Shown in pieces: positions 17,832-56,721 of a stretch of 64,000 bases of DNA; position 1 is the first letter of the stretch, and each line of letters starts with the position of its first letter. The stretch covers positions 1 to 64,000 of the forward strand of contig SVDC01000013.1 of NCBI GenBank assembly GCA_015058045.1, written 5' to 3'. Both the position numbers and the translations under genes were made by a program. The notes beneath the pieces were generated by a model that saw nothing but the letters and a program-made list of their open reading frames with translations, was not told the origin of the DNA and ran no database searches. This DNA comes from Cellulosilyticum sp. (GTDB taxonomy: Bacteria > Bacillota > Clostridia > Lachnospirales > Cellulosilyticaceae).

Positions 17832-20051
17832 TTAACGAACAGCGTGTACTCTATTATGTCCTCTAGCTTCTGCTAATTCTCTTTTAGTATAATCATTCAA
17901 CTTATTCTTTAGCTTTAAATCATAATTTACAATACAATTGCCACCTAATAACTTTGCTCTATATAAGGCATGATCAGCAAAACGAATGGCATCATCGAAG
18001 TTTAGGGTATACTCATTACACATATAAAGCCCTCCGCTTAAAGTAACCTTAATATCTTTTTCCTTCTTCGTCTCAAAAGTCATTTCTTCTAACTGCTTTC
18101 TAATCTCTTCTCCAATCTGCATAGCTTCTTGTCCTGTAAGATTATTGAAAATGGCAATAAACGCTTTTCCTCCATAACGCCCTACCTCATTTTCTGTCGG
18201 CATATGTGCTTGTATAATTTCACCTATAGAGCTTAAAATCTCATCCCCTAAGGTATAACCATATTTTTGATTCATCCTTTTAAAAGCATCTACCTCTAAC
18301 ATCATAATAGCCGTTTGTTGATGCTTTCTATGATTTTCCTTAAAAAGCTTTTCTCCATTTTTAAGTACCACTGTTCTTGAAAGAAGTCCTGTAAGCTTAT
18401 CATGTTCCGTTAAATACTGAATTTCTTGACATAAGCTTGTGTTTTTTAACGTGAATCCTAAATAAGATGCCACAATCTTAGCCATTTCAATATCCTTTGG
18501 ACTATAAGCCCCAGGTTCATAACTTCCAATCGCCACAACACCTACAACTTGATGCTCTACCTTTAAGGCCATAACAATCATAGACTTAAGCTGCATACCT
18601 GTCTTGGAATTAATGATTTTCTTTAAACTGTATTCCTCAAAATTCCCATTATTAATCACAAGGTCTAGTTGATATTGTGTACAATAATCTGCCAATCTAG
18701 CCGTATATCTGAGTAAATCATTATTTGAAGGTAACCACCCTTCTTGCAGATCATATAAATTATATTGTAACTTTCCATTCTCCATCATCCCAATACCCAT
18801 AACATCAATAGGCATAAGGTCTTTTAGCTCTTCTTTAATGGCTTCTTCTAGATTTTCTAAGGATAAATTAGAAGTAAGCTTACTGCCCAGTCTCGCAATT
18901 TTTTGTAACTGTCCATATGCTTCTTGATAAGCATTTTGCTCTATTGCAGTCTCTTCTATGCTTGATTCCTTATGGATTACTTCCTGGATAGGGACACTCA
19001 TTTGCTTTTGTTCTTTTTCTATAGATTGCAGCATTTGATCTGCTGCCTCCCACTGTGATGTCTTTTCATAAATGTCCTTTAATAGACTATACACTTCCAC
19101 TAAAAGATAAGATGCCTCCATCTCTTTTGCCTGCTCACTAGCCTTCATCAGTTGTTTCTTGGCTTCTTCTAATTGTTCTTCTTCTATTAAGTATTTTCCC
19201 CAATCTATGTACGTCTTAATAACTACTTCTTTATAAAGTACACTCATCTTCAGAGCCGTCTTAAAGTCTTTTTCTGCCTGCATCTGAAGCTTTCTTGCCC
19301 CATTTAGCTTGCCTCTTAATCTTAAAACTTCTCCTACTTCATATAATTGTGTCCCTTCCTCTTTAAAATCAGCTACTAGATTATACGCTTTATTGCCATA
19401 TTCTCTAGCTTTTTCTAATCGATTTTCCTCTAAGTAAAGCATTAAATAAAGTATATTAAGTTGTACTTCATCCTTTGGTGTCAGCCACTGAGCTCTATCT
19501 TGTATGTACTGTAAGGATTCTTTGGCACTTTTATAGTCTTTTATAGCAATATAAAACTTTACTATCCCTAATGTCATCTGAATTTGCAAGTTAGGCTCAT
19601 CTACTTCTTGACGCTTGCTTGCTATTTTCTGCCTATAAAGGTTCGCTTGCTCCCATTCACCTTTTAGCGTATAGGCACTTAAAAGTTGCCCCTTTACTTC
19701 AATCAGTCCTATTAATTCTTCCTGAGTTTTAAATATTTCAAGTGCTTCTTCTCCCATCTTAATGGCATCATTTAACATGCCACTTAATAGGGCATATTCT
19801 GTTTTTAAAAGTAGTAACTTCCCATAAACCAATGCCTTTTCCGGTAGTTTATCCTCTTGTAGTGTATCATTTTGCTTTTCAAAATTTTGCACTGCGCACT
19901 GTTGCATTGCATACTCTTGCATTGCTTCTTTTAAAATTGGCTCTACTACCTCTATTTTTTCCCCTAACTTTTGTCTGACTACTTTCATAAAAAAGTCTAT
20001 ATACTGGGGGTCGCTTTTAAGCTTAATCACTTCTTTTTCTAATTCGTTCAT
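17832..20051 (-). CDS. TPR-GAF-GGDEF-like protein with degenerate active site
   Basis: The 739-residue protein starts with about 350 residues of helical tetratricopeptide-like repeats, followed by a GAF-like sensor domain (about 385-540) and a C-terminal GGDEF-type domain (about 550-710; HDKLTGLLSR and ALYRAK are conserved). The catalytic GGDEF motif reads GGKAF (627-631), so metal and GTP chemistry for c-di-GMP synthesis is probably lost. It may act as a c-di-GMP or GTP-binding or protein-interaction module. It is monocistronic, with no membrane segment. Confidence 0.85.
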   Translation of the reverse strand: MNELEKEVIKLKSDPQYIDFFMKVVRQKLGEKIEVVEPILKEAMQEYAMQQCAVQNFEKQNDTLQEDKLPEKALVYGKLLLLKTEYALLSGMLNDAIKMGEEALEIFKTQEELIGLIEVKGQLLSAYTLKGEWEQANLYRQKIASKRQEVDEPNLQIQMTLGIVKFYIAIKDYKSAKESLQYIQDRAQWLTPKDEVQLNILYLMLYLEENRLEKAREYGNKAYNLVADFKEEGTQLYEVGEVLRLRGKLNGARKLQMQAEKDFKTALKMSVLYKEVVIKTYIDWGKYLIEEEQLEEAKKQLMKASEQAKEMEASYLLVEVYSLLKDIYEKTSQWEAADQMLQSIEKEQKQMSVPIQEVIHKESSIEETAIEQNAYQEAYGQLQKIARLGSKLTSNLSLENLEEAIKEELKDLMPIDVMGIGMMENGKLQYNLYDLQEGWLPSNNDLLRYTARLADYCTQYQLDLVINNGNFEEYSLKKIINSKTGMQLKSMIVMALKVEHQVVGVVAIGSYEPGAYSPKDIEMAKIVASYLGFTLKNTSLCQEIQYLTEHDKLTGLLSRTVVLKNGEKLFKENHRKHQQTAIMMLEVDAFKRMNQKYGYTLGDEILSSIGEIIQAHMPTENEVGRYGGKAFIAIFNNLTGQEAMQIGEEIRKQLEEMTFETKKEKDIKVTLSGGLYMCNEYTLNFDDAIRFADHALYRAKLLGGNCIVNYDLKLKNKLNDYTKRELAEARGHNRVHAVR

Positions 20052-20183
20052 TATAGGCCACCTCTAGACTTTTATTGTTTGATTTCCTTTCTTAAATTTT
20101 ACTCCAATTTTCTTGAAAAAGATATCATTTTCCCTACAAAAATGTCATCTTATGTATTTTAATTAGTACTTTTCGTATATAAA

Positions 20184-20212
20184 TAAGGACCTTGCTATAC
20201 GCAAGGCCCTTA
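20184..20212 (-). terminator. Intrinsic terminator of the candidate RNA gene
   Basis: AAGGGCCTTGC-gtata-GCAAGGTCCTT on the minus strand forms an 11-bp stem with one G-T pair, followed by an AT-rich tail. Confidence 0.65.
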
Positions 20213-20551
20213 TGGTTGCCAGAAATAAAATTCAGTTCCACTTTATGTGCTTATCTTAAATCTTTCATTTTTACTGCTTGCCATCAAAATAGTTGTCGTC
20301 GCTTACTTTGGGTAGCCCCAACTGGCATTCTGATGATTACAAGTGTTCAAAAACTACTCAGGCGATTCATGAAACTAAGAAGTTTCTATGACCAACAACT
20401 TTTGTGTGTCAGTTAAGGTAAGACTGAGTTAAGTTGAAACCTGCTTTTAAATTGGCAAACTTAACATGTCTAGCATGTTAAGATATTAGGTTTTGAGTAC
20501 TCTTACCAACTAATTTGCGTATTGCATTTCATTCTCCAAGGGTATCATCTC
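20195..20551 (-). ncRNA. Candidate structured non-coding RNA, family not identified
   Basis: The 750-bp gap between two divergent genes holds a non-coding stretch of about 350 nt that is less AT-rich than its surroundings. On the minus strand it has a TATAAT box (20558-20563), then hairpins CTTAACATG/CATGTTAAG, GGTAAGA/TCTTACC, TCATaGAAAC/GTTTCATGA and AGTTGT/ACAACT, and ends at a terminator (20184-20212). I could not match it to tmRNA, RNase P, SRP or 6S RNA. Transcription and family are inference. The upstream part of the gap (20565-20804) is AT-rich and empty apart from an 11-bp inverted repeat at 20559-20606. Confidence 0.5.
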
Positions 20552-20745
20552 CTAACAATTATACAAAAGTAATTATTGATTTTCATCTAATAACTCCTTT
20601 TGTATAATCATAGTATGACCCAATTTCACCTCATCATACTACCATTTTTTAGCAATTCCTTTTTTGTATGAATCATCTCTTAAATGAATACTTTATAAAA
20701 ATAATATAGTCTTACTTATCTCATTAAATTCTAATATTTTTTAAC

Positions 20746-20774
20746 TTGTATGCCTCTATAGAATCATTTAAAAT
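20746..20774 (+). promoter_or_regulatory. Predicted promoter of the AI-2E-family permease gene
   Basis: TTGTAT (20746-20751) and TAAAAT (20769-20774) have a 17-bp spacer and lie about 30 bp upstream of the start codon. Confidence 0.5.
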
Positions 20775-20804
20775 AAAGGATAACTAATACTGAAAGGAGC
20801 TACT

Positions 20805-21917
20805 ATGCAAAAACTTAAACAACCGTTTTGGCTCATTACCTATGGCCTAATTTTATTTTTCTTTTTATTACGTTTTAGCACATTCTCTAGTGTGGCTAGT
20901 CAATTTTTTGAACTCGTTAATCCCTTTTTATGGGGATTTGCACTGGCATATATCTTAAATATTCCTTATGAATTTTTCCTCAAAAAAATGTTTAAGAGTT
21001 CCAAAGAACATAAGCTCTATAAAATGCACAGGTCATTTTCTCTTGTTCTATCTTATGCTGTATTTTTCTTAGGGATTGCTTTTATTATCACATTATTTAT
21101 TCCTCAGCTTTTAGAAAGTATCAATCTCTTTGTAGCAAACTCAGGCGAGTACTATACAGGCTTACAAGCTTTCTTCCAAGATACGATTAATAAGCTTCAG
21201 CTCGATACAAAATTATGGAAAGAACTTGAAAACGCCATTATGTCACTGGCTAATTTACTTAAAAACTTATTACCATCCCTTGTAAATATTGTTTCTAGTG
21301 CTGCTTCAAGTGTCTTTGATTTAGTTTGTACACTCTTTATCTCTATTTACATTTTAGCAAGCAAAGACAAACTCTTGAATTTAATAGCACGTTCTACAAA
21401 GGCATTTGCTTCTAGTAAAATGCAAAAACGACTTTATCATATTGTAAATCTTACAAATCGTACCTTTAGAGGGTTTATTGTTGGTCAACTCTCTGATGCA
21501 CTTATTGTGGGGCTTATTACATTTATCGGTGCCTACGTACTGGATTTCCCATATCCTGTTTTACTGGGATTCTTAGCAGGTATAACTAATGTAATTCCCG
21601 TTATTGGGCCATTTATCGGTGCGGTACCATGTGTACTCATTATTCTTATGGTCAATCCACAAAAAGTACTTTGGTACATTATCTTCATCGTCGTACTTCA
21701 ACAAATTGATGGTAACTTTATTTGTCCATTAATCGTTGGAGATTCTACAGGTCTAGATGGACTTTGGATTCTCTTTGCTATTATTGTAGGTGGTGGATTC
21801 TTCGGAATTGTGGGCTGTCTTTTAGCCGTGCCAATCTTTGCTGTTTTATTTAACTTATACGAAGAACTTATAACGACTAAACTTAGCGAAAAAGTATCTA
21901 CTTCCTCCAAGAAGTAA
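20805..21917 (+). CDS. AI-2E family (YdbI/PerM-like) transporter
   Basis: The 370-residue membrane protein has about eight hydrophobic segments and the family motifs FWLITYGLILFFF at the start, GFIVGQLSDAL (about 222-232) and ITNVIPVIGPFIGAVP (about 262-277). Family members include autoinducer-2 exporters and Na+/H+ or solute exporters. The substrate here is unknown. AAAGGAG precedes the ATG. It is followed by an intrinsic terminator. Confidence 0.88.
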   Translation: MQKLKQPFWLITYGLILFFFLLRFSTFSSVASQFFELVNPFLWGFALAYILNIPYEFFLKKMFKSSKEHKLYKMHRSFSLVLSYAVFFLGIAFIITLFIPQLLESINLFVANSGEYYTGLQAFFQDTINKLQLDTKLWKELENAIMSLANLLKNLLPSLVNIVSSAASSVFDLVCTLFISIYILASKDKLLNLIARSTKAFASSKMQKRLYHIVNLTNRTFRGFIVGQLSDALIVGLITFIGAYVLDFPYPVLLGFLAGITNVIPVIGPFIGAVPCVLIILMVNPQKVLWYIIFIVVLQQIDGNFICPLIVGDSTGLDGLWILFAIIVGGGFFGIVGCLLAVPIFAVLFNLYEELITTKLSEKVSTSSKK

Positions 21918-50850: not shown

Positions 50851-51514
50851 ATCCACCCGTCGCCTTAATCGGGTAGAAGGCGGTGACTAACCGCCGTCCT
50901 CCCACACCACCGTACGTGCCGTTCGGCATACGGCGGTTCGGTTATTCAAAGATGTGCCTATGCCTTGCATCACTTGCTCCTAACTCTAAGCGTTCTTATA
51001 TTTTACTCTCAGCTTCCAGCCTACCCTCCTATAAGCAACCTCTTTCGAGCAACTGCCATCATCAAGTATCAGAAAAGTAATGTCTGTCTTATCATAACCG
51101 TCAAGTCCTTTCCTCCATCTACTTTCATAGATTTCTACGGTACTACGACTTGAACTGACTTCTGTGTGTTCAATCCATACCTTACAATATGGGTTACTAA
51201 GAAGTGAAATTTCATCACTTTACAAAGCGTACCATACAGACCTCCCCAGTTAAGGTGCGTACTCTTTCCCTCCATCTATCTGCCACATTTACACAATATA
51301 CCTTCGGATAGTTATTGGGCTTCAGTTTGTTTAGCAACCTTACCCGATATATCATGCCTCATATGTGATTTCTGTTCGTCAGACCAGAGGTTTGCCATCC
51401 GACTTCCTTCAGATTCCACCTCACGATAGACACCTTGTCATTGGCTATGTGTTTCCCACTATCAGGGCACACTACGGACTTACACCGATTAGAGCACGCC
51501 CATGCTGGGCGAAC
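50851..51514 (-). mobile_element. ORF-less group IIC intron
   Basis: The minus-strand 5' end GTTCGCCCAGCATGGGCG, an internal GGAATCTGAAGGAAG block and the 3' domain V (50906-50939; ACCGCCGTATGCC, a loop, then GGCACGTACGGTGGT) match O. iheyensis-type IIC introns. The catalytic triad is CGC, as in class C. Domain VI follows, ending near 50851. The element is about 664 nt, the size of the ribozyme alone, and has no reverse transcriptase ORF. The first bases read GTTCG instead of GTGYG. It sits right after a terminator (51516-51560). Confidence 0.85.
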
Positions 51515-56233: not shown

Positions 56234-56244
56234 CTATATTGCCC

Positions 56245-56437
56245 AAAATGCCGTTCCTGCGATTTTGACGCCCTAGATTCCTCTAGGTGGGTATCTTTTC
56301 TTACTCATTCTGCCTTCCGCTGCCCTATGGTAAAAACCAGTGAGGGAATTAGCTTGCGGCCTGACATAGTTGTAAGGAAAATCAGATTCCCTTGCACAGT
56401 TTGTAGGTTCAAAATAACAGGTTGTCGTACACCCCAG
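56245..56437 (-). ncRNA. ssrS: 6S-RNA-like gene, copy 1 (terminator-proximal)
   Basis: A closing stem, CCTGTTATTTTGA at the 5' side and TCAAAATCGCAGG at the 3' side, encloses about 150 nt that fold into a long hairpin. Conserved blocks are GAACCTACAAACTG, GGGAATC/AATTCCC and ACCCACCTAGAGGAATCTAGGG in parts. Size and shape fit Firmicutes 6S RNA, which binds RNA polymerase in stationary phase. The family call rests on shape and partial memory of the consensus, not on a covariance search. About 65-70% identical to copy 2 by eye. Confidence 0.6.
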
Positions 56438-56485
56438 GTAATATTTATAAACAATCTAATGCTTAGATTACGTTCTTAATGAATG

Positions 56486-56695
56486 CCCAAATATGCCGGT
56501 CCTGCAATTTTGACGCCCTAGATTCCTCTAGGTGGGTATCTCACCTACTCCTTCAGCCTTCCACTGCCCTGTAGCTTATTACACTAAGCAAAAGCTCTTA
56601 AGGGAATTATCTTGTGGCCTGACATCACTAGTAATACTCTTGATTCCCGTGCATAATTTGTAGGTTCAAAATAACAGGTTATCGTACATCTCAGG
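56486..56695 (-). ncRNA. ssrS: 6S-RNA-like gene, copy 2 (promoter-proximal)
   Basis: It has the same closing stem (CCTGTTATTTTGA / TCAAAATTGCAGG) and the same internal blocks as copy 1. It is preceded by a promoter at 56722-56749 and followed by copy 1 and the terminator. Two different 6S RNAs are known in Bacillus and other Firmicutes, but direct tandem placement is less usual. Confidence 0.6.
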
Positions 56696-56721
56696 AATTC
56701 ACTCACTTTTTTGTTAAAATC

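Follow-up and report, generated by a model that had tools for sequence, protein, structure and literature searches.

Forespore-specific RNAs are known from Bacillus, where their action is poorly understood. In Bacillus velezensis, Bvs196 is described as an independent, forespore-specific RNA of 294 nt, with a stable conserved fold, which depends on sigma-F and sigma-G, mainly sigma-G, and affects spore resistance (PMC9147052). The same account presents CsfG of Bacillus as a forespore-restricted RNA under sigma-F and sigma-G, and states that no mRNA targets of CsfG are known (PMC9147052). Another account describes conservation of CsfG among spore-formers (PMC12456014). Among clostridia, the structured RNA ModT, or raiA motif RNA, is reported to influence sporulation by way of a diguanylate cyclase and c-di-GMP (PMC11706538).

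Here, we describe an RNA encoded in a 64-kb stretch of Cellulosilyticum DNA (the window). It lies in the intergenic region between a TPR-GAF-GGDEF gene (17832–20051, minus strand) and an AI-2E-family permease gene (20805–21917, plus strand; domain names are those of Pfam). It is close to certain that the minus strand at 20181–20605 specifies a functional structured RNA. A first-pass annotation had proposed a structured RNA gene of unknown family, and this is borne out by the lack of any Rfam match, by conservation in seven genomes and by covariation. The length given there, about 350 nt, was too short because the 5′ hairpin had been left out; the predicted RNA runs from 20605 down to 20181, and the predicted transcripts in the seven genomes measure 228–428 nt. 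These genomes comprise six of the seven from the genus Cellulosilyticum (the window's own, G001, G003, G004, G005 and G006) and one from another genus, Sporanaerobium hydrogeniformans XHS1971 (G007). They include C. ruminicola JCM 14822 and the Cellulosilyticum sp. MAGs JAFOHG010000051.1, JARKVN010000127.1 and JAGAVZ010000255.1. The features of the locus are as follows.

20635–20639, minus strand: −35-like box GTATG, 17 bp ahead of the −10-like box; G[TAC]AT[AGT] in all seven genomes
20611–20617, minus strand: −10-like box CATACTA, resembling the forespore sigma-G/F type; [CT]ATA[CA]TA in all seven genomes
20181–20605, minus strand: structured RNA, with a predicted transcript of about 425 nt drawn from homologues, folds and conservation relative to the flanks
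20561–20605, minus strand: 5′ hairpin P0, in all seven folds; may be a few base pairs longer in some genomes
20485–20556, minus strand: near-invariant core, with P1 (GUUAGG/CCUAAU), P2 and P3 (UGC-loop-GCA), recognized by conservation
20510–20548, minus strand: putative mini-ORF (MIPLENEMQYAN) behind AGGAG
20460–20482, minus strand: hairpin P5, with nine base pairs in the window; present in the folds of the window, G003, G006 and G004
20435–20459, minus strand: 5′ arm of helix P6 (UUUGCC...), pairing with 20216–20240 in the consensus and single folds
20301–20321, minus strand: conserved motif UUGGGGCUACCCAAAGUNAGC, possibly a small pseudoknot (UUGGG/CCCAA plus GCU/AGC)
20216–20240, minus strand: 3′ arm of P6 (...GGCAA), mostly invariant
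20181–20213, minus strand: 3′ hairpin, putative intrinsic terminator, supported by covariation and by a T-rich tail in relatives

The seven folds share a common architecture, with P0 first and then the core, made up of P1, P2 and the small P3. After the core, most show the long-range helix P6, which encloses a variable region, followed by the terminator-like 3′ hairpin; in G005, the post-core region folds differently. The minus strand at 20160–20560 folds with −103.3 kcal/mol (z = −4.19), and none of 100 dinucleotide shuffles is equally good; the plus strand folds less well (z = −2.74, with 1 of 100 shuffles as good). The hairpins seen at first pass are present, including the one of nine base pairs (CTTAACATG/CATGTTAAG, 20460–20482) and the strong one at the 3′ end (20181–20213). 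P5 is not seen in the folds of G001, G005 and G007. With 0–1 mismatch, the 21-nt motif UUGGGGCUACCCAAAGUNAGC occurs once per genome in five genomes, always within the RNA; at three mismatches, there is one match in each of three other family genomes. The terminator recognized in the first-pass annotation agrees with the 3′ hairpin at 20181–20213 and with the T-rich tails found at the matching place in relatives. An automatic terminator scan of the window's genome did not call this hairpin, because the T-tract is weak there.

Relatives had been named as a check, and comparison with them shows both conservation of the homologous regions and compensatory changes in the 5′ hairpin. In the seven-sequence alignment of P0 and core, two-sided changes occur at 8 of 33 pairs, and 91.7% of cells pair. 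Shuffled controls average 3.0 such pairs, with 0 of 500 reaching 8, and slid structures give 1–3. All eight pairs sit in P0, where they make up 8 of the 15 consensus pairs. P1 and P2 hardly vary, so covariation does not prove pairing in these core helices; similarly, P6 is mostly invariant and therefore yields little covariation evidence. Further downstream, four sequences (the window, G003, G006 and G004) show two-sided changes at 8 of 45 pairs, namely two of the nine in P5, one in P6 and five of the 14 in the 3′ hairpin, where G004 is poorly aligned; 12 of 180 cells are unpaired. RNAalifold energies lie far below those of column shuffles, at −101.0 versus −34.8 ± 4.1 for three sequences and −52.1 versus −4.3 ± 2.3 for four, and widely so for five as well, with the 3′ part of G004 badly placed in the four- and five-row alignments. 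One caveat is that the covariation sample is small, consisting of seven sequences from one family.

The core (71–73 nt) has a mean column identity of 87% and 47 invariant columns across the seven genomes. Among the three closest genomes (the window's, G003 and G006), RNA identity is 75–78% with gaps counted, compared to 0.53–0.55 for the GGDEF gene, 0.34–0.60 for the spacer to that gene and 0.38–0.58 for the promoter-side spacer. The noncoding block is thus better preserved than the rest of the locus. For the permease gene, the value is 0.70 in the window–G006 pair, which was compared at full length. In principle, the locus might specify no functional RNA at all, its conservation being that of a DNA element or due to chance among close relatives; the confinement to one family and the inverted repeats among the boxes and hairpin arms would suit such an explanation. 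It is nevertheless very improbable, given the structure-preserving changes, the conservation of the RNA above its flanks and an architecture that is consistent over two genera.

The RNA is narrowly distributed. A DNA search of 59 related genomes, own included, gave matches in nine. Besides the own genome, the six listed above were accepted; the matches in G053 and G016 (L008 and L009) and L010, a match of the sequence to itself, were set aside because they are AT-rich, palindromic or self matches. R1, a covariance model of the 72-nt core, recovers the same seven genomes among 295 of the order, each with one copy, at E < 1e-17. Five further matches (E 0.015–0.05; 12 in total at E ≤ 0.05) miss a large part of the core when aligned and look like chance. 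A laxer search of 24 family genomes again gave the same seven as strong matches, all others having E values of 0.03 or more. Among 398 genomes of the phylum, R1 finds the RNA in the own genome alone; one other match (E 8.5e-4, 28.8 bits) overlies the start of an open reading frame and was set aside. No credible copy was seen in the remaining 288 of the 295 order genomes or in the rest of the 398 phylum genomes. An exact scan for the core pattern in named genomes returned ten loci, five in Cellulosilyticum or Sporanaerobium and five in unrelated organisms. Three of the latter five (all but L052 and L060) were scored with R1 and gave 19.3 bits, 17.6 bits and no match, and these unrelated loci were rejected. 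The match L025 was likewise discarded, as a ribosome-binding site and TTG codon inside an open reading frame. In viral contigs, the core pattern had 0 matches and the GGDEF protein none. The only genus member without the RNA, G002, is 84% complete and also lacks a match to the neighbouring DUF3783 protein, so the locus may be missing from that assembly.

The first-pass annotation saw no coding potential, and indeed no long open frame common to the seven transcripts was found, nor was a long ORF or pseudogene seen at the locus. On the RNA strand, stop-free stretches in the seven transcripts reach at most 61 codons, a length seen in one genome; the longest in the window has 23. The opposite strand of the window has a 77-codon stop-free stretch, but the frame of that number stays open for only 20–41 codons in each of the six relatives. 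The mini-ORF has 9–12 codons after the ATG in all seven, with a shifted stop in the window and variable residues past PLE. Within the core, the AGGAG-ATG/TTG word might serve as the ribosome-binding site of a 9–12-residue peptide, which is poorly conserved after its first few residues. A dual-function RNA, in which AGGAG and the ATG/TTG start direct translation of a 6–12 residue peptide, would explain why AGGAG, ATG and TTG are invariant, with a stop within 13 codons in 7/7, and words like AGGAG-ATG/TTG do stand at apparent translation starts elsewhere. Yet AGGAG is partly paired in P1, the residues past PLE vary, the stop is shifted in the window, and core conservation runs past the stop to the end of the core. 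We regard dual function as improbable.

The RNA matches none of the families in Rfam 15. As the first-pass annotation had advised, all Rfam covariance models were run; the gathering-score scan of the 64-kb window with Rfam 15 gave nothing at the RNA locus. At E ≤ 10 for 20052–20804 and E ≤ 5 for the six relatives, only microRNA, snoRNA and leader models matched, all below gathering score and regarded as noise. The RNA region has no covariance-model match to tmRNA, RNase P, SRP or 6S RNA, in agreement with what had been supposed from the sequence. 6S RNA (RF00013) is an independent structured RNA in the window, as is predicted for the present RNA, but its matches lie elsewhere, at 56236–56700 on the minus strand, where two stand in tandem (60.3 and 57.2 bits, 36 nt apart). 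Also on the minus strand, three Rfam models for group II intron RNA match at 50868–51430. The raiA motif, which had been put forward as a candidate, is excluded: RF03072 has no match in the window or the own genome and 0 in the 59 related genomes, and the same search, as a positive control, finds it in 8 of 60 class genomes. When R1 was run with filters off against the eight raiA loci, the best score was 15.8 bits, outside the raiA match. Five raiA sequences look unlike the RNA by eye, and there was no match in either direction by sequence or model. Both are structured clostridial RNAs; ModT is linked to a diguanylate cyclase, and in Cellulosilyticum a GGDEF gene neighbours the present RNA. 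Literature searches listed no paper linking Cellulosilyticum or lentocellum with an RNA topic, most subscription journals being outside their scope; for forespore-specific noncoding RNA in Clostridium, the sole match concerned initiation of sporulation in C. difficile.

Where is the RNA transcribed from? The first-pass annotation pointed to a TATAAT box. This sequence is present (minus strand, 20563–20558), but it is rejected as a promoter: it forms part of the 3′ arm of P0 and the linker, a promoter can be read from it on the plus strand as well, and other sequence replaces it in the six relatives. Upstream of P0, all seven loci carry G[TAC]AT[AGT]-N17-[CT]ATA[CA]TA, with the first base of the −10-like box 12 nt ahead of the aligned P0 start. 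Pairwise identity is 0.73 in the −35-like box and 0.86 in the −10-like box, compared to 0.44 in the spacer; for the four most diverged loci, the values are 0.80, 0.83 and 0.42. The sigma-G consensus is GHATR-N17/18-CATNHTA, and the boxes fit it, with deviations in G003 and G007 (T for C) and in G006 (T at the fifth place of the first box). In the window, a widened pattern has 10 hits versus 6–19 in 10 shuffled windows, and the textbook pattern has 2 versus 0–5. The pattern alone is thus not rare, and what counts is that it is conserved at a single position.

SASP genes are a class of sigma-G targets, and all 24 family genomes have them (55 matches). Of 31 loci taken for a test of upstream regions, 29 were examined, two that were cut by contig ends being dropped. 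The textbook sigma-G pattern, fixed beforehand, occurs in 11 of the 29 (shuffles: mean 0.20, maximum 2). The widened pattern, which was chosen after seeing L074, in a scan made after the upstream regions had been viewed, occurs in 13 and is absent from 16 (shuffles: mean 1.06, maximum 4). Nine of the 29 regions have GAATA-N17-CATATTA, several of these being orthologues and so not independent, and GTATA-N18-CATA[CT]T[TCA] stands in four that belong to another SASP type. In the nine, the boxes lie about 115–175 nt before the SASP match, which implies a long conserved leader for that SASP type. Since some SASP genes of the family share the box arrangement, transcription of the RNA in the forespore, by sigma-G or sigma-F, is predicted, and we consider a forespore sigma factor probable. 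Promiscuous recognition by SigF and SigG is described for Clostridioides difficile (PMC7438776), and we therefore make no firm choice between the two.

Alternatively, the RNA may be a vegetative or stationary-phase housekeeping RNA, in the manner of raiA or 6S, whose promoter only resembles the forespore type. The boxes are indeed short and frequent by chance, and ModT, a structured clostridial RNA, is reported to be expressed in exponential growth (PMC11706538). This alternative is unlikely: no conserved sigma-A −35/−10 pair was seen by eye, and three observations point towards a forespore sigma factor, namely the constant 17-bp spacing, the constant distance to P0 and the resemblance to SASP promoters. 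The promoter region (20613–20641, plus strand) is partly palindromic, as it is by eye in G004, and not clearly in the other relatives. A sigma-G-like box pair can consequently be read in the rightward direction too, facing the AI-2E permease gene; this gene has a weak match, below cut-off, to the YtvI sporulation family.

It is also possible that the RNA is a cis-acting leader of the TPR-GAF-GGDEF gene, that is, a riboswitch or attenuator whose 3′ terminator would respond to a ligand bound by the core. In 6/6 Cellulosilyticum loci, the RNA lies directly upstream of the GGDEF gene, on the same strand, and a DUF3783 gene follows too; the order of a conserved 5′ domain and then a terminator recalls a riboswitch. 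In Sporanaerobium, however, the RNA does not adjoin the GGDEF/DUF3783 operon, and the homologue of DUF3783 lies on a different contig. Adjacency, which a riboswitch would keep in all lineages, is thus limited to Cellulosilyticum, and it is improbable that the RNA serves that gene as a riboswitch. Furthermore, the terminator-to-gene distance is 129, 128 and 242 nt in the window, G003 and G006, a separate TAAAAT-type element can be made out by eye in this gap in relatives, and known riboswitches have no match. Taken together, we find a leader function quite unlikely. The TPR-GAF-GGDEF protein (17832–20051, minus strand) shows 27–47% identity among six Cellulosilyticum genomes, which is low for a kept neighbour.

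Overall, we favour, with moderate confidence, a stand-alone forespore RNA that is transcribed leftwards and acts in trans through its core. We infer that transcription would start from the forespore-type promoter at 20611–20639 (sigma-G, possibly sigma-F), and it is predicted to end at the hairpin at 20181–20213. P0 probably protects the 5′ end, the near-invariant 72-nt core is likely the working part, and P6 would enclose a lineage-variable region with the second conserved motif. The RNA would accumulate in the developing spore, where the core may act in trans; its target is conjectural and might be the ribosome, an RNA-binding protein or short sites of complementarity in mRNAs. When the first 20 bases of the core were searched in 24 genomes with up to three mismatches, no other site was better than two mismatches, so this segment has no extended antisense target there. 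The outcome may be an adjustment of spore properties or outgrowth, as is thought for CsfG and Bvs196 in Bacillus. SASP genes occur in all 24 family genomes and the RNA in seven, and hence the RNA is not needed for sporulation in general. More tentatively, and with considerable doubt, it might represent a new Lachnospirales family of forespore-transcribed RNA that is packed into the spore; its core would bind a conserved partner, either the ribosome or an RNA-binding protein, and thereby govern dormancy or the earliest translation as the spore germinates.

If the forespore assignment is right, this kind of RNA would extend to another class, in cellulose-degrading gut clostridia, and would add a family absent from Rfam 15; the 72-nt core offers a handle for a direct search for its partner. 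Like Bvs196, the present RNA is predicted to have a promoter of the sigma-F/sigma-G class. It differs in its host, Lachnospirales rather than Bacillus, and its forespore expression is a prediction; the two are likened by description. CsfG, also compared by description, is said to be conserved among spore-formers, whereas the present RNA is confined to one family as far as searched. On these analogies, the best reading is of a lineage-specific forespore RNA that may work like CsfG and Bvs196 and is probably a separate family. We conclude that the RNA forms a new family within a general kind that is already known.
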